The notes under the pieces are model-generated. The model was not told where the DNA came from. It made no database searches and worked only from the letters and a program-made list of their open reading frames with translations. This document shows positions 31,608 to 44,439 of a stretch of 64,000 nucleotides of DNA, piece after piece. How positions within the stretch are numbered: the stretch's first letter is position 1; the number at the start of each line of letters is the position of its first letter. The stretch comes from Asaia prunellae JCM 25354 (GTDB lineage: Bacteria > Pseudomonadota > Alphaproteobacteria > Acetobacterales > Acetobacteraceae), in contig NZ_BAJV01000001.1 in the NCBI RefSeq assembly GCF_000613885.1, positions 62,001 through 126,000 of the forward strand. The letters are read 5' to 3'. The position numbers were made by a program, and so were the translations under genes.

Positions 31608-33759
31608 TCAGTCAGCGTCACGCTGCCTGGAAGGGCGGGACGGCTTTGCACCGACATTCTCCGAGATATCGGCACCCGTCTGCTGATCGACAACACGCAT
31701 CGACAGCTTGACCTTGCCGCGATCATCAAAGCCAACGACCTTGACCTTTACGGCGTCGCCCTGCTTGACGACATCGGTGGTCTTGGCCACGCGACCATCG
31801 CTGAGTTCGGAGATATGCACCAGGCCGTCACGCGGGCCGAGGAAGTTCACGAACGCGCCGAAATCGGCAGTCTTCACGACCTTGCGTCGTAGATACGACC
31901 GATTTCCGGCTCTGCCACAATGCCTTCAATGCGCGAGATGGCTTTCTGAGCCTGCTCGTCATTGGACGCAGCAATGGTGATTACACCTTCATCGTTGATA
32001 TCAACCTTGGCACCCGAAAATTCGACGATCTCACGGATAACCTTGCCGCCCGAACCGATCACGTCACGGATCTTTTCCTTGGCAATGCTCATGGTGGTGA
32101 TCTTCGGCGCATTGCGCGACACACCCTCACGACCTTCGTCAAGAGCCTTTGCCATTTCACCCAGGATATGCAGACGACCGTCACGAGCCTGCTCGAGGGC
32201 CACCTTCATGATTTCTGGCGTGATCGAGGTGATCTTGATGTCCATCTGAAGCGCGGTAATGCCTGCTTCCGTTCCGGCCACCTTGAAGTCCATGTCGCCG
32301 AGGTGGTCTTCGTCGCCGAGAATGTCGGAAAGCACAGCGTAACCGCGATCTTCCTTGATCAGCCCCATGGCGATACCAGCTACGGGGCGCGGCAGCGGAA
32401 CGCCGGCATCCATCAGGGCCAGAGACGAGCCGCAGACCGTTGCCATTGACGACGAGCCATTGCTCTCGGTGATTTCAGAGACAATACGCACCGTGTAGGG
32501 AAAACGGTCCTTGGCAGGCAGGAGCGGATGAATGGCACGCCATGCAAGCTTGCCATGGCCGATTTCACGGCGACCCGGGCTACCCATACGACCGCATTCA
32601 CCGACCGAGTAGGGCGGAAAATTATAATGCAGCATGAAGTTCGAGCGATACTCGCCTTCAAGCGCATCAATAATTTGCTCGTCCTGCGTCGTACCAAGGG
32701 TTGCAACGACAAGGGCCTGCGTTTCACCACGGGTAAACAATGCAGAACCATGTGCGCGCGGCAGGATACCAACTTCGGAAACGATCGGACGCACGGTTTT
32801 GGTGTCACGGCCATCGATGCGGATGCCGCTTTTCAGAATGGCACCACGAACGACCTGGGCCTCCAGCTCCTTGAGCATGGGCTTGGCCAGTTCGACATCA
32901 AGGCCTTCTTCCTGAAGACCTTCAATGATACGGCCCTTGGCTGTCGCGATCTTCTCGTAACGAGCCTGCTTGGCTTTTTCCTTATAGGCATCAGCCATAA
33001 GCTTGGTGCCGATCTTCTCCACGCGCTTGCGCAGGGCAATCTGCTCTTTGGTGGGACCTTCGAGATCCCAGGGCTGCTTGGCAGCGTGCTCGGCGAGATC
33101 GATGATCGCATCAATGACGGGCTGGAAAGCCGTATGACCTGCGGTCACGGCTTCAAGCATCACCTCTTCCGAAAGCTCAGAAGCCTCGGACTCAACCATC
33201 AGCACGCCTTCACTCGTACCGGCTACGACGAGATCAAGCTCACTTTCCTTCATCTCCGAAAGAGTCGGGTTGATAACGAGCTTGTCATTGATGCGTGCAA
33301 CACGTGCCACACCGACCGGACCGTAGAAAGGGATGCCCGAAAGGGTAAGCGCAGCCGAACAACCGATCAGGCAACCAGAGCCGGGTCATTTTCCATGTCA
33401 TGGCTGAGAACGGTCGCCGTAACCTGCACTTCGTTACGGAAATTCTCCGGAAAGAGCGGGCGGATAGGACGGTCGATCAGACGCGAAATCAGGGTTTCGC
33501 TTTCGGACGGACGGCCTTCACGCTTGAAGAACCCGCCGGGAATACGGCCGGCCGCATAGGCCTTTTCCTGATAGTTGACCGTCATCGGGAAGAAATCCTG
33601 ACCCGGCTTGACGGTTTTCGCACCTACAGCGGTGCAGAGTACCACGGTGTCGCCATAGGTCGCTACGACAGCCCCATCGGCCTGACGGGCAATCTTGCCG
33701 GTTTCCAGAACGAGCGGGCGACCTGCCCAGTCGATTTCCTTGCGGAAGTAGTTGAACAT
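31608..33759 (-). CDS. pnp: Polyribonucleotide nucleotidyltransferase (PNPase), frameshifted twice
   Basis: Repaired length is about 717 residues, the normal size. Two RNase PH-like domains ([37 protein letters not shown]), a KH domain ([15 protein letters not shown]) and an S1 domain ([20 protein letters not shown]) appear in order. It degrades RNA 3' to 5' with phosphate and forms the degradosome core. Bases are missing near 33370 and 31884; repair gives [13 protein letters not shown] and [13 protein letters not shown]. The start [11 protein letters not shown] is supported by homology. It follows rpsO, the usual order. Confidence 0.95.
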
Positions 33760-33949
33760 TGTTCTGTCCTGATTTGACGGCTTTGACACTGGGTGCGGGA
33801 GTCTGAAGGGAACGGGCCCTGACTGGCTGGCAGCGTTTCGGACGGCATGGCAAGAACGACCGGGATCGGACCGGCATGTCACCATGTGGCCTGAAACGCC
33901 GAAGGCCGGTTCTGTCTCCAGCTTCAACGCTCAGTGACGCAGCCTGTTG

Positions 33950-33974
33950 GCCCGCCGCCAGGAAAGCGGCGGGC
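33950..33974 (-). promoter_or_regulatory. Perfect 9-bp hairpin between rpsO and pnp
   Basis: GCCCGCCGC and GCGGCGGGC pair perfectly around a seven-base loop, 34 bp after the rpsO stop and about 190 bp before the pnp start. No U-run follows on the minus strand. In enterobacteria a leader hairpin at this place is cut by RNase III and lets PNPase control its own mRNA; a similar role here is inference. Confidence 0.55.
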
Positions 33975-34007
33975 AGTGGCGGAGACGAAGCGCTCCGCCC
34001 GAGCATG

Positions 34008-34277
34008 TTAGCGGCGCAGGCCGAGACGCTCGATAAGGGTCTGATAGCGGCCCTGGTCCTTGCGCTTGAGGTAGTCAAGCAGGCCACGACGCTGGCCGAC
34101 GAGCATCAGAAGACCACGACGTGAGTGGAAGTCTTTCTTGTGCGTCTGCAGGTGGCCCGTCAGATTGACAATACGCTCGCTCAGCAGGGCAACCTGCACT
34201 TCCGGCGAACCCGTGTCATTCGGGGCGGTCTTGTATTCTTCGATCAGCGCCGTGCGGCGTTCAGCTGTAATCGACAT
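34008..34277 (-). CDS. rpsO: 30S ribosomal protein S15
   Basis: The protein has 89 residues, exactly the usual size. [60 protein letters not shown] and a basic C-terminus identify S15, which binds the central domain of 16S rRNA early in 30S assembly. GGAGACAGAG precedes the ATG. The start overlaps the end of truB by 17 bp. Confidence 0.97.
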
Positions 34278-35214
34278 CTCTGTCTCCGTATTTAAACGAC
34301 TCGAATATCCGTATCGGCTTCAGCCGCCCCTCCTGGACGCGGCACAATCCGACAAGACACCCCCCCTCCCGGGCTTGCAGGATGTCGCCATCCTGTGCTG
34401 TCAGCATCAGATCAGCGCAATCGGACAAGACAAGGCTTTGTCCGTAGCGCAGGGCCTGTGCTTCTGAATCGGTCACGGCCAGAGCCGGGATGTCGGCCAG
34501 CGCGGTCGAGACCGGACGCAGAAGCGCTGAAAGTGCATCGGCCTTGTCGTCATTTTGGATCAGCTTGTCCAGTGTTATCGCATGTTTCTCCTCAAACGGA
34601 CCGCATTTGGTCCGACGAAGAACGGCGATATGACCAACGGTCCCACAGGCCAGAGCAATGTCGCGAGCCAGGCTGCGCATATAAACGCCCTTGCCCGACT
34701 GCACCTCAAAAATCGCATGATCACGATCGGGTCGTTCCACCAGGGTGATCGAGTCAACACGAGCCGGACGCGGCGGCAGTTCAGGAGGTTTGCCTGCTCG
34801 GGCAAGATCATAGGACCTTTCCCCATCAACCTTGAGCGCGGAATAGACCGGTGGAACCTGCATGATATCGCCGGTCAGGGCGGGCAGAGCACCGCGCAGA
34901 TCCTCATCGGAAGGACGATGATCACTGGTTACAACCACCTCTCCCTCGCGGTCATCCGTTGTGCGGGATTCGCCCAGAAAAAGCGTGAAACGATACCGCT
35001 TTGTCGCATCCATGATGTAGGGGATTGTCTTGGTAGCCTGGCCAAACGCGACAGGCAGTATACCCGTTGCAAGAGGGTCCAGCGTGCCGCCATGACCGGC
35101 CTTCCTGGCATTGATCAGGCGACGCGCCTTGTTCACCACATCGGTTGATCCGATATGCAGATCCTTGTCGACGACCAGCCAGCCGTCGATATCCAGACCT
35201 TTTTTTCGTCCCAT
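34261..35214 (-). CDS. truB: tRNA pseudouridine(55) synthase TruB
   Basis: The protein has 317 residues. [19 protein letters not shown] and [18 protein letters not shown] are the TruB motifs, with the catalytic Asp46. [20 protein letters not shown] and [16 protein letters not shown] follow as expected. It makes pseudouridine 55 in the T-loop of tRNAs. It lies between rbfA (11 bp) and rpsO (overlapping). Confidence 0.95.
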
Positions 35215-35224
35215 GAGGGGTTAC

Positions 35225-35650
35225 TCAGTCTTCTGAATCAAGATCACGACGAACTTCGGGCGTACGCATCAGCGCATCCATTTCCATCGCATGTTCAAGA
35301 GCTGTATCGGGCTGAAAATGAATCTCAGGCACCATACGCGAACGCAGTGTCTTGGACAGTCCGGTACGAAGGAAAGGCGCCACACGCTTGAGCGCGGGAA
35401 GAATTTCCTCGATATCGCTGCGGCCGAGACGACAGACGAATGCCGTCGCATGCCGGAAATCAGGCGAGATACGCACTTCCGTAACAGTCACGCGCACATC
35501 AACCAGTTCCGGGTCGCGAAACTCGGTACGGGCGAAAATCTCCGAGAGGACACGACGGACCTCTTCGGACATTCTCAGCTGACGCTGCGAAGGACCGGCT
35601 ACATCACCGGGGCCAGAGAACCCCGGGACCTTGGAACGCGATCCCCTCAT
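35225..35650 (-). CDS. rbfA: Ribosome-binding factor A
   Basis: From the ATG ending at 35650 the protein has 141 residues. This start overlaps the infB stop as ATGA and is preferred to a start 27 bp upstream. [56 protein letters not shown] and a final short acidic region match RbfA. It aids late 30S maturation near the 16S 5' end. Confidence 0.94.
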
Positions 35651-38453
35651 GCAGGGATCACTTCCATTTCGAAGCATTCGACCATATCGCCTTCGCGCAG
35701 ATCGTTATAGCCGGCAAAGGAAAGACCACACTCATAGTTGCGTGCGACTTCCTTGACGTCATCCTTGAAGCGCTTGAGCTGGCTCAGATCGCCTTCATGG
35801 ATCACAACGTTGTCACGCAACAGACGTACGCCACAGCCGCGCTTGACCACACCCTCGGTGACATAGCAACCAGCGACCTTGCCGACCTTCGTGATATTGA
35901 AGACCTGACGGATCTCGGCGTAGCCCAGGAACTTCTCGCGATGCTTGGGCGCAACTTTGCCCTTGACCAGCTGCTCCACGTCATCGGTCACCTGATAGAT
36001 GATCGAGTAGTAGCGGATATCCACGTCTTCACGCTGGGCCATTTCGCGAGCCTGCGTCGTAGCACGCACGTTGAAGGCCACGATGATAGCGTTGGATGCC
36101 TTGGCAAGCTGGATATCACTCTCCGTGATCTGACCGACAGAGGCGTTCAGCACACGGATACGAACTTCCTCATGCTCGAGCTTGAGTACCGAAGCCTCGA
36201 TAGCCTCAGCAGAACCCTGTACGTCGGCCTTGATGAGCAGAGCCACTTCCTTCTGCTCACCTGCCTGGATACGAGCCAGCATCTGGTCGAGCGTACCACG
36301 TGCAGCGGCACGACCGGCTGCCATCTTGTCCTTCTGCCGACGCTGACGGAACTCACAGATTTCGCGGGCACGGTTCTCGTTCTCAACCACAACGAACGGC
36401 TCACCGGCACCCGGAACACCGGTAATACCAAGAAGCTCTACCGGCATGGACGGACCAGCCTCCTTGAGCTGACGCCCCTTGTCATCGAGCATGGCACGCA
36501 CACGGCCCCATTCGGCACCAGCCACCACAATGTCGGAGCGGTTGAGTGTGCCCTTCTGGACCAGAACCGTCGCCACCGGACCGCGACCGCGATCGAGGCG
36601 ACTTTCGATGACAGAGCCTTCTGCAACACGGTTCGGATTCGCTTTGAGGTCAAGAACTTCCGCCTGAAGCAGAATGGCCTCTTCCAGCTTGTCCAGACCT
36701 GTGCGCTTCAGCGCTGAAACCTCGACATCCTGCACATCGCCACCCATAGCCTCAACCACGATATCATGGCTGAGCAGGGCCTGACGCACTCGGTCAGGAT
36801 TGGCACCCGGCTTGTCGATCTTGTTGATCGCCACAATGATCGGAGCATCAGCCGCCTTGGCATGCTTGATGGCCTCAATTGTCTGGGGCATCACACCGTC
36901 ATCAGCAGCGACAACCAGAACAACCACATCAGTGACAGAGGCACCACGGGCACGCATGGACGTGAATGCCTCATGGCCTGGCGTATCGACGAAGGTAATC
37001 TTCGCACCGCTCGGCACAGTCACCTGATAGGCTCCGATATGCTGGGTAATGCCACCGGCTTCGCCTGCTGCCACATCCGTCGTGCGAAGTGCGTCGAGCA
37101 GTGAGGTCTTGCCGTGATCGACATGCCCCATGACGGTAACAACCGGAGCGCGGGTCTGGAGCTCGTCTTCACGATCTTCCACGCCCTCGATACCCAGCTC
37201 AACATCGCTCTCGGCAACGCGACGGACGCGATGGCCGAATTCGCTGATGACCAGCTCTGCGGTGTCAGCATCGATCAGCTGGGTCGCCGTAGCCATGACA
37301 CCCATCTTCATGAGAGCCTTGACCACTTCAGCCTGACGCAGCGCCATACGGTTGGCCAGCTCGGCCACCGTGATCGACTCCGGCAGGATCACGTCACGTA
37401 CAACGCGTACCTGATCGGCACGCAGACGTTCCAGCTCGGCCTGACGACGCTCACGATCGCGCTGACGACGAACAGAGGCGAGCGAACGCGTCTTGTCATC
37501 ATCACCTTCAATCGCAGCCCGAACATCAATACGGCCCGAACGGCGCGAGTCGCCACTTTTCTTGGGTGCGGCTGGCGCACCACGGCGTGGCGGCGCTGCA
37601 GGCGCACGACGCGGGCTGGCACGACGGTCATCTTCAGCCTCACCACCCGCGGCACCACCCCGACGCAGATGCAGCGTCTCATTGCGTGGTGCAGCAGCAG
37701 CATTGTTGGCAGCCGGTGCTGGCTTGGGTGTGACAGGGCGAGGCGCCATAACAGCACGTTCTGCCAGCGGACGCAGTCGTTCCATCGGCGCAGCAAGCTG
37801 CACACCGCCAGTACGACGCACGGTCTCCGCCGCCTCGAGCGGTGCACGTCGGGCAGCTTCCTCACGTTCACGCTCAGCGGCTCGCGCCTTGCGCTGCTCT
37901 TCGAGAGCTTCCTGCTTGGCCTTGTCTTCGGCGGCCGCCGCCATCTGGCGCTCGTGTTCTTCCGCCTCGCGAGCCGCTTCAGCTTCGCGAGCCAGCGCTT
38001 CGGCACGGGCCTCTTCCTCTCGCTTGGCTTCCTCAGCCGCGGAGAGAATGCGGATCTTCTCTTCCTCGATGCGGGCCGCCTCACGGGCTGCTTCCTTGCG
38101 TTGCTCTTCGAGCACACGCTGGCGGATAGCAAGTTCGGCCGGCGTCAGTGCGCGACCGGCGCCTGCGCGACCACCACGCCCCCCTGCTGAACCACGACCG
38201 TCCTTGCGTTCGTTGGCCTCACGCTTCTTGCGCACTTCCACCTGGACCACCTTCGAGCGTCCATGCTGAAGCTCTGACGCACTGATCCTGCGTCAACCGT
38301 CCGCCCGAGTTCCATGCGCCCGCCCGGACGCAGGGACAGACGTCCCTTACCCTGGTCACCCTGAGCCTGGGCGCCCTGATCCTGGACATTCTGGCCTTCT
38401 GTCTGGCCGCCCTGAGCCTGAGTGCCCTGGTTCCGTTCGTTGCCTTCGCTCAT
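35647..38453 (-). CDS. infB: Translation initiation factor IF-2, frameshifted near the start
   Basis: Repaired length is about 935 residues. The N-terminus is Gln/Gly-rich then [18 protein letters not shown], followed by a long charged Ala/Glu/Arg helical region. The GTPase domain has GHVDHGKTS (G1), VDTPGHEAF (G3) and NKIDKP (G4); the C-terminal domains bind fMet-tRNA. One base is missing near 38262, where [18 protein letters not shown] is restored. Its ATG overlaps the stop of the ylxR-like gene. The factor is essential, so an error is more likely than a mutation. Confidence 0.95.
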
Positions 38454-39098
38454 ATACCTGCCTGTTCCCGTCCGAGCCGCTCAGTCAGCGGCTCAGGAAC
38501 CAACCCATCGGTCAGCCCCAAAAATCGTTCATGCTCAGCCATCAGACGCTGCGCGAGCGCCCCAGGCGCTATCACAGCATAGACCGCATGTTCCCGCCCG
38601 AATGCCGTCGCAAGCATTTGGGCCGGTAACGTCAGTACCGGAAGTTTGTTGTTTCCCGATATCAGACGCCGCAACTCATCCGGCTTCCGCCCGATCCCTG
38701 GATTACCAGTCCGGCTTTACCGCCGACAATCCATTCGCGACACTTAACAAAACCACAGAGAGCCTGACCAGCCCGGCGCGCGAGACCGAGCCCCTGCACC
38801 AGCCGCGCTTCTATTCCTGAAACCAGTACCTGCGCAATATCCTCAGGTACCGTTACCGGCTGACGCGCTGCCCTCGAAAAGAGATGACGCGTCCGCGCGG
38901 TATCTAGCACATCCCGCCCGGCGCTCAACCAGATTCCCCGCCCCGGCAGCTTTGCCGCCAGATCAGGAACACCAAGCCATTGGGGGAGATAACAAAGCGC
39001 AGCATAACATCGGGGTTTCCACTCTTGCGAGTGACGATGCAGCGCCTCTGCGGTCCTTTTTCATCATCCAGCTCGATCGGATCGAGCAAGTCGGACAA
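38450..39098 (-). CDS. YlxR (DUF448) and L7Ae-like RNA-binding protein, frameshifted twice
   Basis: Repaired length is about 216 residues from TTG at 39098; AGGAGA lies just upstream. The N-terminal DUF448/YlxR domain has GPQRRCIVTRK and GRGIWLSAGRDVLDTA. The C-terminal domain, GLGLARRAGQALCGF and GKAGLVIQGS, is like ribosomal L7Ae. Such fusions sit between nusA and infB in alphaproteobacteria, as here, and probably bind RNA. Bases are missing near 38968 and 38683. The exact function is not settled. Confidence 0.87.
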
Positions 39099-39129
39099 AA
39101 AAATCTCCTGTGCTTCTTTATCCTGAAAC

Positions 39130-40674
39130 TCAGACGTCGGAAGCCTCCCCTTCCTTGGGGGACTCGGCGTCCTGCTCACCATCGAACCAATGGGCACGTG
39201 CCGCCATGATGATCTCGTTGGCAGCATCTTCATCTATATTGTCATTACCCAGCATTTCGACAAGCTCATCACCTGCAAGATCAGCCAGATCATCAAGGGT
39301 TTTTACACCCTTTTCACCCAGCGTAACCAGCATGGCATTGGTAAAGACACCAAGCTCGGCAATCGAATCCTCGACTCCCAGACCACGGCGCTTGTCATCA
39401 AGTTCCTGCTCTTTCTGTACAAGGAACTCTTCGGCACGGCGCATCAGCTCTTCAGCCACGCTTTCATCGAAACCTTCGATTGCGTGCAGCTCGTCGGGCT
39501 CAGCGTAGGCCAGCTCCTCGATCGTATGAAAGCCTTCTGTCACCAGCAAACCGGCAATCACGTCGTCGACATCAAGCGCATCAACAAAAAGCTGGGTGCG
39601 TTTGCGGAATTCTTCCTGACGACGCTCTGATTCTTCCGCCTCGGTCAGGATATCGATATCCCAACGTGTCAGCTGGCTTGCCAGACGCACATTCTGGCCG
39701 CGACGACCAATGGCAAGAGAAAGCTGCTCGTTCGGCACAACCACTTCCACGCGCCCGGCTTCCTCGTCCATGACCACCTTGGTCACTTCGGCCGGAGCCA
39801 GTGCGTTCACCACAAAGGTTGCAGCCTGCGGGCTCCAGGGGATGATATCGATCTTTTCACCCTGGAGTTCGGCAACAACGGCCTGAACGCGCGAACCGCG
39901 CATACCGACGCAGGCGCCGACGGGATCGATCGAGGCATCCTTGGAGATGACGGCCATCTTGGCGCGCGAACCCGGATCACGGGCTACGGCCTTGATCTCG
40001 ATGATGCCATCATAGATTTCAGGCACTTCCTGCGCGAACAGCTTGGCAAGGAAGGCCGGATGCGTGCGGCTCAGAAAGATCTGCGGGCCACGCGTCTCGT
40101 CACGCACATCATAGATATAGGCACGAACGCGATCCGAGTTGCGGAACGACTCGCGGGGAATCAGTTCGTCGCGGCGCAGCAGAGCCTCGGTATGGCCGAT
40201 CTCGACCATGAGGTTGCCGTATTCGGTGCGCTTGACGGTACCGTTGACGATCTCGCCTACGCGGTCCTTGAATTCGTTATACTGTTTCTTGCGCTCATAT
40301 TCGCGCACGCGCTGAACGATAACCTGCTTGGCAGTCTGGGCCGCGATGCGTCCGAAATCGATCGGCGGCAGCGGATCGACCAGATGCTCGCCAATCTTGA
40401 TCTCGGGCTGAAACTTCAGCGCGATGGCATGAGGAATCTGCGTGTCCTCATTTTCGACGGTTTCAACCACCTCGGTCCAGCGCGACAGACGCACTTCACC
40501 GGAGCGACGGTCGATGGTCGCGCGGATATCCTTCTCATGACCGTATTTGGCGCGTCCGGCCTTCTGGATGGCCTGCTCCATCGCCTCCAGCACTTCTTCA
40601 CGATCAATGTTCTTTTCACGTGAAACGGCGTCTGCCACCAGCAACAGCTCAGGACGGGTAACGGAGGTGTCCAT
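39130..40674 (-). CDS. nusA: Transcription termination/antitermination factor NusA
   Basis: The protein has 514 residues. The N-terminal RNA polymerase-binding domain (1-130), S1 domain ([16 protein letters not shown]), two KH domains ([34 protein letters not shown]) and two C-terminal acidic helical repeats are all present. It controls pausing, termination and rRNA antitermination. It lies 32 bp before the YlxR-like gene and 68 bp after rimP in the conserved cluster. Confidence 0.96.
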
Positions 40675-40741
40675 CAGACGAAATCCTCAAATACGGAGCG
40701 CGAAACCGCGCGGAACAGCAAAAACGGAATAGACGATAAAC

Positions 40742-41365
40742 TCAGTGCGCCTTGCGTCCGGGCTTGGAACCCTTGCCCGGTTTGGCAGGATTGAGCTTCG
40801 GCGTCTTGCGGCGCGTAGCGTCCTCTTCTTCTGCCGCTTCATCTTCCGATGCAATACCCATCATGCAGCGCTTGCTCGATCAGAGCATCAGTCAACACCA
40901 GACGCGCCTTGCGTATGGCCTCAATCGGCAAAACGGCCTCTTCTCCGTCATCAAGACGGATCACGGCCGCATTCTCGCGCGTACCAGTGATAATTCCCGA
41001 GAAACGCTTCCGACCATTAAGCGGCAGATCAAGCTCAGCCTTGACCAGATGACCTGCAAAACGGTCCCAGTCCTTGAGGCGTGTCAAGGGACGATCGATT
41101 CCGGCAGAGGACACTTCCAGCGTCCAGGCACCGGGGATCGGATCATCAACGTCGAGCACGGCGCCGACAGCGTGGCTGATCTGCTCGCAATCCTCGATAC
41201 CGATCAGCGAACCATCTGCCGATCTGCCATGATCTGGATGGTCGGGGTCTCACGCCCCAGAACGCTCAGACGCACGATCTCATAGCCGAGATCGGTCAGA
41301 GTCGGCTCGATCTGCTGCGCGATACGCGCTTCAAGACCGTTCAGGCTGGGAATTTCATTGGCCAA
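40742..41365 (-). CDS. rimP: Ribosome maturation factor RimP, frameshifted twice
   Basis: Repaired length is about 207 residues from TTG at 41365. [26 protein letters not shown] begins the N-terminal domain; [13 protein letters not shown] and the SH3-like C-terminal part follow, then a basic Lys/Pro-rich tail ([15 protein letters not shown]). It aids 30S assembly. One base is missing near 41213 (restoring [19 protein letters not shown]); a second site near 40866 needs one base removed. The TTG lies four bases after a terminator-like U-run and lacks a visible ribosome-binding site, which is odd. Confidence 0.88.
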
Positions 41366-41396: not shown

Positions 41397-41564
41397 CCGA
41401 TAAGACGAAAGATGAAAGGAATTGCGTCTGTCTAGGCCAGTTTTGGAAGAGATGCAAGACTCGCCCCGTTTTACATACGAGTCACACACGTTACGCTCGT
41501 TTACATTATTAGGGTTTCGCAATGGTTGCGAGCAGGTACGGCCGCCTGCCATCGTTCACCGGAC

Positions 41565-42176
41565 ATGAATGATCAAGAGCATCCACTCCCGCAGCTGTTG
41601 GAACAACACCCGGATGGACCGTCCCATCCGGAACGGCGCGGCCCGCGTCTTGCCGGGTTTGCCCTGATTGCCGGGCTGGCCCTTTCCGGCCTGGCTGGTT
41701 TGCATCACATCACAGGGCATAATTCCGTATCCGGCGTACCCGCCTCAGTCGATAACCTGAAAGCCGCCGATCAGCCCACACAACATCCTGAAGCTCAACT
41801 CCCCCAGATCCCCCCGGGAAGTGCGGAACGCGCTCTGGCACGATCGAACTACAGCCAGAAGGACCAGGCCCGCATTCTTGCCGCTTACAAGCGACGCGAG
41901 ATCTCTCTGATCCAGATGCCCATTGCAGAACTCGACGGCAGGATAGGCGAGACCGTCCGGATCGATGCCGGAGGATTCACCCAGATCGTAACCCTCAGCG
42001 ACAATCTGAAAGCCGTTACCCTGCCGATCTATCATGCGGGTGAAGTGACCATATCGCCCGTCCATATGATTGCAGGCAATACGCTTGCAGCAGGAGTTTT
42101 GACTGTTTACGGGATGTACACCCTCCCAACGCTCAGCCCTTCGGAGCTGGTAACCCTGGACGTCATTGCGCAATGA
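41565..42176 (+). CDS. Unknown single-pass membrane protein, first gene of AAA+ cassette
   Basis: From the ATG at 41565 the protein has 203 residues. A Pro/His/Glu-rich cytosolic N-terminus is followed by one membrane helix (about 28-46, LAGFALIAGLALSGLAGL). The rest, about 150 residues, should face the periplasm and includes YSQKDQARILAAYKRREI and GRIGETVRIDAGGF, with no Cys and no recognised domain. The stop overlaps the start of the AAA+ gene (ATGA), so it is very likely a partner of that ATPase. Confidence 0.7.
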   Translation: MNDQEHPLPQLLEQHPDGPSHPERRGPRLAGFALIAGLALSGLAGLHHITGHNSVSGVPASVDNLKAADQPTQHPEAQLPQIPPGSAERALARSNYSQKDQARILAAYKRREISLIQMPIAELDGRIGETVRIDAGGFTQIVTLSDNLKAVTLPIYHAGEVTISPVHMIAGNTLAAGVLTVYGMYTLPTLSPSELVTLDVIAQ

Positions 42177-43441
42177 AAGCCCTGCTTCCCGCCCTGACCC
42201 GTTTCATGCCCGTTATGATGGTCATCTTCCTGATCCTCGCGAGCATTCAAGCGGCAGTAGCTCTGCATCTGTCAGGTGGCATGTTCGTGCGTTTCCTTTC
42301 CTGGGCGCGTGAGGCGTATCTCCCTCTGGCCGGCATCTCGGCCCTGACAGTTCTCTGCGGGATCATATTCGAAACCCATTCCGAAAAACTGATCCGAAAA
42401 GGCCTTCGTAGAAGGAGAGGTATCCTCATGGACTCACTTGCGAGACTGACAAACCGTGACATGCTTGAGGCCCTTATGGCCCAGGAACAGAGAGAGACGA
42501 CGCTCGACGCTGAGGAACTGGCGGCGGCACTGCGCGCGCGGGTTATCGGGCAGGATCAGGTCTGTGAGGATATCGCCCAGCAGCTGCGCCGTCGTCTGGC
42601 CCTCCATGTGCGGAACAAGCCTGTCGGCATCTTTCTCATGGCCGGCCCGCCGGGAACGGGAAAAACCTATCTGGCCAAACAGATCGCCCGCCAGATGGAA
42701 CGTCCACTGCTGCATTTCGATATGACGCAGATGTCCAGCCCACATGCGGCAACGCAGCTTTTCGGCTCACCGAAAGGCTATGTCGGGTCTGATACTTTCG
42801 GCAAGCTGACCGGCGGATTACAGGAAAAACCTGATGCAGTCGTTCTGCTGGACGAAATCGAGAAAGCCCATCCGGATGTGTTCAAGAAATTCCTGACTGC
42901 ATGGAATGACGGACATGTCACCGAGGCCTCCACAGGCGCACAAATATCGACCACGCGCGCCATTTTCTTCCTGACCTCGAACATCGCGACCGAAGAGCTG
43001 ACCGAAATTGCCGATCGCCTGCCTGACGATGCAGAGCGCATGAGAGCCGAGTCGACCGAAGCCCTGCGCAAGGCCGGTTTTGCACCGGAAGTCCTGAACC
43101 GCCTTGACCGCATCTTCGTGTTCCGTCGCCTGCATGGGCTCGACCTTGCGCGTGTCGCCGCACTTGAAATCGAAGCCATGATCAAAGGCTACGGCCTGAG
43201 TGTTGAAGCCGGTGGCATTGACGCGCATCTCCTCTTCCAGCTTCTGCAGCGCCAGCAGAAACTTGGAACCGGGGCCTCCGCACGTGATCTTGTCAGGTCG
43301 ATCGAGGATATGGTTAGTGAGAGCCTGATTCTGGCTCGCCAGAATGGAGCCAAACTGGTCCGCCTGATCATGACGGATAACGGTGTGATCGCTGAAATTG
43401 CCGAAGAGAAACAAGCACTCAATGCCCGTCTTATCCCCTAA
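42173..43441 (+). CDS. Membrane-anchored Clp-type AAA+ ATPase, second gene of cassette
   Basis: The protein has 422 residues. Two membrane helices (about 11-33 and 49-66) precede a single AAA+ module like the second module of ClpA/ClpB: Walker A GPPGTGKT (158-165), pore loop GYVG (202-205), Walker B VVLLDE (223-228), sensor-1 Asn270 and the arginine finger in NRLD (about 310). A ClpB-type C-terminal small domain follows. No Clp-N repeat, no M-domain and no protease domain is present. The pore loop suggests threading of a protein substrate at the membrane. It is coupled to the upstream gene by ATGA. I know no named system with this layout. Confidence 0.85.
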   Translation: MKALLPALTRFMPVMMVIFLILASIQAAVALHLSGGMFVRFLSWAREAYLPLAGISALTVLCGIIFETHSEKLIRKGLRRRRGILMDSLARLTNRDMLEALMAQEQRETTLDAEELAAALRARVIGQDQVCEDIAQQLRRRLALHVRNKPVGIFLMAGPPGTGKTYLAKQIARQMERPLLHFDMTQMSSPHAATQLFGSPKGYVGSDTFGKLTGGLQEKPDAVVLLDEIEKAHPDVFKKFLTAWNDGHVTEASTGAQISTTRAIFFLTSNIATEELTEIADRLPDDAERMRAESTEALRKAGFAPEVLNRLDRIFVFRRLHGLDLARVAALEIEAMIKGYGLSVEAGGIDAHLLFQLLQRQQKLGTGASARDLVRSIEDMVSESLILARQNGAKLVRLIMTDNGVIAEIAEEKQALNARLIP

Positions 43442-43462
43442 TTCTCACGGGTATCCCCTCTG

Positions 43463-44439
43463 ATGTCTGCTGTATCACGTCTGTGGCGCCGGGCTCCCGC
43501 ATGGCGCTTCTTCCTCTATGCCAGTGTATTGTTTCTGATTCTCGGAGTGCTCTTTCCTACGCCTATCGTGGCCCGTCACATGGCATGGACAGAGATACTC
43601 ACACGTTATCTGCCTTCCTGGGCATCGCCCTCACCCAATGCCCAGGACAGTACTGCCAGCAATGACAACGCGAACCCGAGCCAACCCGACACCGGCAACC
43701 CGAAGGGCGATCTAACAGACCCGGCACGCTTCATTACACCAGACATCACGTTGGCCATGACAGGGGTGATCCCATTCGGAGGCCACAGCCTGCCCTTACC
43801 GGCCGGGATATGGCACCCTGTCCTGAGCGGCCAATACGGCCCCAATGCCAGAATGTCACTAAACGTTCTGGCCCGTACGGATCGTGGAATTGTCACGGGG
43901 GTGATCATTGCCAGCACAACAGACCAGGACGTACCTCGGGATGTTGTCGAAGATGCCTATAATCACTGTCATGATGACAGAAACTACCATTCAACCGTGC
44001 TTGCCGACCGTCCCGATGGCAAAACAGAATGTACCTATCTGACTGCTGCCTATATGGGACCGAACGCGTCGATCTCCTCAGACCCGCTCATCCAGCTCGC
44101 ATTCAAAAGACTGGTAACGCTCGGCTTTCCAATGCTTCATTGTTCATTGTTGCCAGCTGGCTACATAGCAGCGGGGCACAGGAAAGTACAAAAGGCTCAT
44201 CATCGATTACCTATCTGCTTGCTCCCACACAGCCAGGGACAGTGGTGCTGAAGGCCCCTCTCCCCTATTGGGACAAGAACATGATAGCCAGAGCCCCAGC
44301 AGCTCTGGAGTTTTTACGCCGGGTGGATATCTGGTTTACCGATTGGGTTCCAACACTCCGTCACGGCATGTTGAACGATTACAGTAGTGCTCTGGCAGAC
44401 AGAAAACCTGCCAGAGATCCGGCTGCACCGGAAGAATAG
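43463..44439 (+). CDS. Unknown single-pass membrane protein, third gene of AAA+ cassette, frameshifted
   Basis: Repaired length is about 325 residues. One membrane helix (about 14-33) is followed by a Ser/Asn/Pro-rich linker and a large domain with GQYGPNARMSLNVLARTDRG, DAYNHCHDDRNYH and KTECTYLTAAYMG, probably periplasmic; two Cys could form a disulfide. The C-terminal part has VDIWFTDWVPTLRHGMLNDYSSAL. No domain was recognised. One base is missing near 44131; adding it joins LVTLGFPNASLFIVASWL. It follows the AAA+ gene by 21 bp. Confidence 0.65.

Follow-up and report, generated by a model that had tools for sequence, protein, structure and literature searches.

What does a Clp-type ATPase do when its gene lies between those of two membrane proteins that match no family in the libraries searched? 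The question is raised by a locus of Asaia prunellae JCM 25354 (Acetobacteraceae), within a 64,000-nucleotide stretch (contig NZ_BAJV01000001.1, positions 62,001 to 126,000) that we refer to as the window. Three genes on the + strand, here called A (41565–42176; 203 amino acids), B (42173–43441; 422 amino acids), and C (43463–44439), form a compact cassette, in which A and B overlap by four bases (ATGA, 42173–42176) and 21 bp separate B from C, an arrangement that the initial annotation had described correctly. The cassette is real, conserved, and not named in the searches made. Its gene content, motifs, co-inheritance, and purifying selection, all read from sequence, together with the predicted topology and partner domains, point to a protease-free, membrane-anchored remodelling machine of the Hsp100 type, a reading to which we give about even chances.

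B is a member of the Clp/Hsp100 AAA+ proteins. It matches Pfam AAA_2 (E = 1.1e-36; 126.8 bits against a cut-off of 27), which bears out its first description as a Clp-type ATPase. Its motifs include Walker A (GPPGTGKT, residues 158–165; 42644–42667), the pore loop (KGYVGSD, residues 201–207; 42773–42793), Walker B (VVLLDE, residues 223–228; 42839–42856), and R310 in PEVLNRLDR (43100–43102), which aligns with Clp proteins at the position that we take to be the arginine finger. Across 11 aligned B proteins, a set that omits the broken B genes of G006 and G007, mean identity is 90% over 422 columns and all four motifs are invariant (11/11), the first residue of Walker B being V or I. The best NCBIfam models are ClpB and ClpA (4.2e-49 and 5.7e-48), matched through the second module only and far below cut-off; the ClpB equivalog model gives 167.7 bits against 1232, over profile positions 549–781 of 853. 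B shares Walker A, Walker B, the pore loop, and the arginine finger with the second AAA+ module of ClpB, ClpA, and ClpC, but has one module rather than two. A predicted membrane hairpin replaces their first ring and N domain, FLTAWNDG stands where they have LLQVLDDG, and A and C are co-inherited with B as partners. FLTAWNDG and the juxtamembrane motif MDxLARLTN (residues 86–94; 42428–42454) separate B from the other aligned Clp proteins. In a tree of 21 Clp-type modules, which includes viral Clp proteins and 11 of 26 candidate loci, all 10 B proteins (10/10) fall into one clade with support of 1.0 under midpoint rooting.

Hydropathy and charge place two membrane helices at the N terminus of B, as first described, at residues 13–31 (42209–42265) and 48–66 (42314–42370), with a positive stretch after the second. 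The count of lysine and arginine (K+R) is 2 to 7 after helix 2 and 0 to 2 in the loop between the helices. In A, a single hydrophobic segment (residues 29–47; 41649–41705; hydropathy) precedes a beta-rich C-terminal domain predicted to be extracytoplasmic. C begins with the motif LWxxAxxWR (here LWRRAPAWR; 43481–43507), predicted to lie on the cytoplasmic side, followed by a membrane helix (residues 18–36; 43514–43570; model and hydropathy). In the 15 residues before and after the segment, mean K+R is 2.3 and 0.5 for A, and 3.1 and 1.8 for C. The A set comprises 55 proteins, thinned at 92% and with start codons partly picked by script, and the C set 52 proteins, which are what was left of 80 loci after dropping cut copies (L151 and L180), near-duplicates, and the broken L106. 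The charge distribution around the segments suggests that the AAA+ module and the N terminus of C are inside, and the domains of A and C outside. Two cysteines are invariant in 52/52 C proteins (here within 43967–44032, codons 43967–43969 and 44030–44032), which fits a periplasmic location.

The flanking proteins had been proposed for profile searches, in which a characterised family would have spoken against a new system; none was matched. A, B, and both frames of C were compared with Pfam, NCBIfam, PHROGs, and PADLOC, with no family for A or C, and the 52 C and 55 A relatives were likewise unrecognised in Pfam and NCBIfam. Weak matches of A to the CU044_5270 family (6/55 members, best E = 0.0025) and to FMN reductases (6/55 members, best E = 0.0075) were taken as noise. 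Profiles of C and A found no match among Protein Data Bank (PDB) sequences (best E = 0.068 and 0.23, respectively). An AlphaFold model of the A. bogorensis A protein has a mean predicted local distance difference test score (pLDDT) of 78.0 and a predicted template modelling score (pTM) of 0.60; the prediction is good for its C-terminal beta domain, ten-residue pLDDT means being 82 to 98 from residue 81 on. The C model (mean pLDDT 85.5, pTM 0.74) shows a mixed alpha-beta domain preceded by two helices at the N terminus. Foldseek searches against PDB gave best E values of 4.8e-3 for C and 2.5e-2 for A, none at 1e-3, and that of A against viral models 6.4e-3, all taken as no match; the rows linking A to CBM60, C2, and MmpS5 are weak. 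A and C are probably extracytoplasmic domain proteins, as predicted, with no family or fold matched in the libraries searched.

LWxxAxxWR stands at one position in 52/52 C proteins. Within the first 30 residues it occurs in only 11 of 1170 open reading frames (ORFs) from 12 neighbourhoods, and these 11 are taken to be C genes. In the window, C does not form the single 325-residue protein initially reported: 43463–44439 spans 977 bases, which is not a multiple of three, and that reading had crossed a frame break. The first frame (43463–44251) ends after 262 codons and encodes the motif, the membrane helix, and the bulk of the extracytoplasmic domain. The homologous C-terminal part lies in a second frame (44029–44439), similarity leaving the first frame near 44130 and being homologous in the second from about 44134. 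A C ORF of 315 to 331 codons is present in 12/12 relatives and whole in 11/12; the exception is G007, which has the N-terminal part in another frame, and both G006 and G007 show breaks in B. Other genes in the window are also frame-broken: 5/16 against A. bogorensis and 4/12 against G004 (one of them a spurious long ORF), including rimP and infB (the latter recognised by eye) within 33002–41365. Between the two relatives hardly any are (A. bogorensis against G004, 0/15; the reverse, 1/12, the same spurious ORF). The break in C is therefore probably an assembly (insertion or deletion) error.

Does B serve a protease? The IG[FL] loop of ClpA and ClpC, between sensor 1 and the arginine finger, is the contact with ClpP. 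It is absent from 10/10 aligned B proteins, in keeping with the initial report of no such loop, and IGF is present in L240, L248, L261, and L281 of the same alignment. Of the 38 Pfam families matched by B, none of the 25 listed is the M41 protease domain, and B scores 20.8 bits against 600 for NCBIfam FtsH_fam. TssH (ClpV) gives 144.4 bits against 885, and the immediate neighbours of the cassette are rimP, nusA, an ABC transporter, and aconitase. The failure to match B to FtsH, ClpV, MoxR, or other such ATPases, already noted at the outset, thus holds. Since B has threading motifs, lacks the IG[FL] loop, and has no recognised part for proteolysis, we favour a remodeller over a membrane-tethered unfoldase that uses A and C as substrate receptors and delivers to ClpP or to a protease acting in trans. 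Such a split counterpart of FtsH-HflK/C is unlikely in our estimate, although it draws on the Clp ancestry of B and on FtsH itself, which with HflK and HflC joins a cytosolic motor to partners that face the periplasm (PMC12048511). FtsH has a membrane hairpin and a cytosolic AAA+ ring, as B is predicted to have. Compared with that complex, B is Clp-type and has a short periplasmic loop, and for its partners no SPFH family was matched when the 52 C and 55 A proteins were searched against Pfam up to E = 0.1.

The same alternative finds a footing in one neighbourhood. In the deep-branching G456 (L219:9922–16972), the cassette is preceded, on its own strand, by trigger factor, clpX, and lon (Pfam), together with a thioredoxin-like gene split in two and what by eye is a partial ClpP. 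This fits a proteostasis role of the cassette. However, at a threshold of 45% identity across 80 residues, none of these genes has a counterpart in the remaining 112 of the 113 loci searched, whose flanks mostly span 6 to 10 kb. L178–L181 and L221, read by eye, share no neighbour, and no further gene recurs beside the cassette in the deep loci so read. The latter also bears on ATP-driven export or force transmission, in which B would thread a protein through the inner membrane, or move C and A against it, like an Hsp100 on a translocon. The apicomplexan export motor is an Hsp100 on a channel. Effector trafficking in Apicomplexa is reviewed in PMC7355975. A membrane-docked motor with outward partners would suit this scheme, but the cassette holds no multi-pass channel protein, A and C having mostly one hydrophobic segment, and we regard export as quite unlikely.

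We find the cassette across the acetic acid bacteria and in some of their relatives. In named genomes, a search with the N terminus of B gave 86 confirmed loci, of which 80 were kept, from Asaia, Swaminathania, Brytella, Acidomonas, Gluconacetobacter, Acetobacter, Novacetimonas, Komagataeibacter, Ameyamaea, Tanticharoenia, Lichenicoccus, Acetobacteraceae KSS12, and some metagenome-assembled genomes. B is 422 to 444 codons long in 78 of the 80 and shorter in two. The order A-B-C holds in 80/80 (with profiles iterated on the same ORFs), A and B overlap by four bases in 69/80 and are separated by a gap in 11/80, and rimP adjoins the cassette in 75/80, the others being L178–L181 and L160, which begins too near B. 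All nine genomes of the genus searched (9/9) have matches to A, B, and C. In Acetobacteraceae as a whole, B is present in 106/397 genomes and A in 98/397, every one of which also has B (by-eye comparison of the lists). An A match is missing from eight B genomes, namely seven of 1.9 to 2.4 Mb and G498, whose B match starts at the end of a contig. For four of the seven small genomes (L228, L229, L231, and L232, which carry B and C), the region before B was read and holds no recognisable A, although a diverged A is possible. C was matched in 36/150 genomes, 35 of which also have B; the remaining one is G081, where 79 bases separate the C match from the end of a contig. Among 42 genomes chosen by the analyst, C is found in 32/32 with B and 0/10 without, the match being weak in the three deepest (E = 5e-7 to 6e-10). 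A failure of the genes to co-occur, which had been named as grounds for rejecting a system, was thus sought and not found. The three-gene system initially proposed stands as a conserved, co-inherited cassette; what does not carry over is C as one frame in the window, and A was not found in the seven small genomes.

The cassette is kept whole in several genomes of about 1.9 to 2.1 Mb. Genomes of 1.7 to 2.5 Mb from the same family with no B or C match were also observed (G500, G072, G464, G504, G535, G564 [g55, g65], and G098 [g91]), in which it may have been lost.

The ratio of nonsynonymous to synonymous substitution (dN/dS) is about 0.02 to 0.07 for B, 0.13 to 0.41 for A, and 0.06 to 0.21 for C; three pairs were saturated and yielded no value. 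These low values indicate that the reading frames are not due to chance. B is far more constrained than A and C, which fits one motor with diverging outward partners. Because A was not found in the seven small genomes, the core looks like B-C rather than the full trio, with A accessory. Two outward domains that evolve faster than B, and a conserved cytoplasmic C motif next to the motor, would also suit an envelope-stress switch, in which C and A regulate B, or B regulates them, and no other protein is remodelled. The complete threading pore loop of B suggests work on protein substrates instead, and we consider a pure switch very unlikely.

Anti-phage defence is the least probable of the alternatives that we weighed, a highly improbable one. 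It takes its cue from PADLOC matches of B to PDC-M37B (3.4e-24) and DolB of Dodola (7.1e-22), both of which are Clp-like ATPases, like B (models of 375, 390, and 518 positions), and from a plasmid-borne relative of B. These PADLOC matches reach no further than the AAA+ core that such proteins have in common, and B matches ClpB and ClpA more strongly, although the libraries differ. A and both C frames have no PADLOC family up to E = 1, the DolA partner of Dodola included. Furthermore, the cassette occupies one chromosomal site in most loci and is retained in several reduced genomes. The phage and viral searches returned little: 0/147 phage records cover 80% of B, the FLTAWNDG pattern has no match in viral contigs, and the Clp proteins in the best 80 of 474 confirmed viral loci (274 to 969 residues) include none with two hydrophobic N-terminal segments, the six below 500 residues being perhaps truncated by contig ends.

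Outside the family, matches are few. A class-wide search with profile A4, which was built from acetic acid bacteria alone and may miss distant forms, found 1/289 genomes, our own, and a phylum-wide search with profile A7 found 1/299, again our own only. With profile A8, 45 genomes of the class were matched, our own B at 778 bits and the best elsewhere at 171. An order-wide search matched 103/200 genomes, every row among the matches listed belonging to Acetobacteraceae, so that little was tested. The outlier came from tblastn of B against plasmids: pMVF16-3 of Microvirga sp. VF16 (49.7% over residues 86–403, 280 bits) is the only one clearly above ordinary Clp among the matches listed (the best 15 and 12 of 2135 matching records), the other rows being at most 149 bits. 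C had no match among plasmids. The Microvirga protein aligns with B at 45% across 396 positions, and its N terminus likewise contains two hydrophobic segments. Ten bases after its gene, behind a purine-rich stretch, lies an ORF of 64 residues (L239:20998–21192) that is not in the gene table of the record. It encodes LWNEASVWR, one helix, and a short tail, that is, only the N-terminal motif and helix of C, and may be a minimal C or a remnant; it is a single case. Because only these two elements are retained, it suggests that the motif and helix of C, rather than its periplasmic domain, meet B.

Among characterised systems, Skd3 (mitochondrial CLPB) resembles B in its single D2-type module, by sequence match. 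Skd3 is a disaggregase and has ankyrin repeats where B has a membrane hairpin, and we know of no partners like A and C for it. In Torsin, the arginine finger is supplied in the lumen by LAP1 and LULL1. B has its own arginine finger and would face away from the partner domains, and its Pfam Torsin score is a weak 25.7 bits against a cut-off of 27. Torsin is nonetheless a Clp-like AAA+ protein with dedicated activators, like the cassette (PMC4999309). By analogy, the nearest working parallels appear to be FtsH-HflKC and Torsin-LAP1, with B falling below the family thresholds of both.

Under the favoured reading of a protease-free remodelling machine, a helical hairpin would hold B in the inner membrane with its AAA+ module in the cytoplasm, where six copies of B would probably assemble into one ring and thread proteins through the pore. 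Beside it would sit C and, in most species, A, each anchored once in the membrane with a folded domain in the periplasm. Coupling to periplasmic partners is suggested by topology and co-inheritance. C, the core partner, would contact B chiefly by its LWxxAxxWR segment, on the cytoplasmic side, and by its membrane helix, and A would be accessory, the faster-evolving outward domains acting as adaptors or sensors. The partners would most likely recruit membrane or envelope proteins, or present them to B, or else inform B of the periplasmic state, and B would pull apart, extract, or remodel an inner-membrane protein or complex, with no degradation by B itself. We infer the hexamer, the threading, the contacts, and the substrate.

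Several observations weigh against this reading. The pore loop varies to GYIG in L221 and to GYSG in the Microvirga protein. Counts of hydrophobic segments are uneven: two were counted in 8/11 B proteins, and exactly one in 34/55 A and 41/52 C proteins (hydropathy). The charge contrast for C is modest. Residues 1–80 of A are predicted with low confidence and no helix is modelled there. The hydrophobic segment of A could be a cleaved signal peptide instead of an anchor. In seven small genomes with B, A was not found. As rimP adjoins the cassette at most loci, the trio appears to occupy a single inherited site in acetic acid bacteria, and its synteny counts for less than independent arrivals would. 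Finally, the L219 neighbourhood can also be read as B serving a protease, which B could do through another contact.

In the immediate surroundings, the cassette is flanked by rimP and nusA on one side and by the ABC transporter and aconitase on the other (Pfam; order read in relatives). TTACA, then TTGC, then CTG.CA are common to nine Asaia and Swaminathania sequences at 41490–41555, before A, a stretch that may be the promoter region of the cassette. The best named relative of the window is A. bogorensis GD-01 (91% over B residues 1–112), the named-genome search possibly leaving out records very close to the window; the B of G001 is 96% identical over its whole length. In the same genome, approximately 3.4 kb before the window (C38:57608–58626), the match of a Clp-type gene to B is split between two reading frames, one piece in each.

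A description of the cassette was not found among the papers listed in the literature searched, which lacked most subscription journals. A bolder proposal, which we hold only tentatively and think doubtful, is that it represents a new class of machine in bacterial membranes: a hairpin-anchored Hsp100 with one ring, which the LWxxAxxWR helix of C would couple to periplasmic domains with new folds and which would drive ATP-dependent extraction or disassembly of envelope complexes in the manner of FtsH-HflKC or Torsin but without a protease, in acetic acid bacteria and carried by plasmid to other Alphaproteobacteria. Bacterial membrane-protein extraction is discussed mainly through FtsH; if the favoured reading is true, a protease-free, membrane-anchored Hsp100 would be added to that field. 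A motor under very strong constraint, present in 106/397 genomes of the family including several small ones, together with two unrecognised partners, suggests that acetic acid bacteria have an envelope process to which our searches attached no name.

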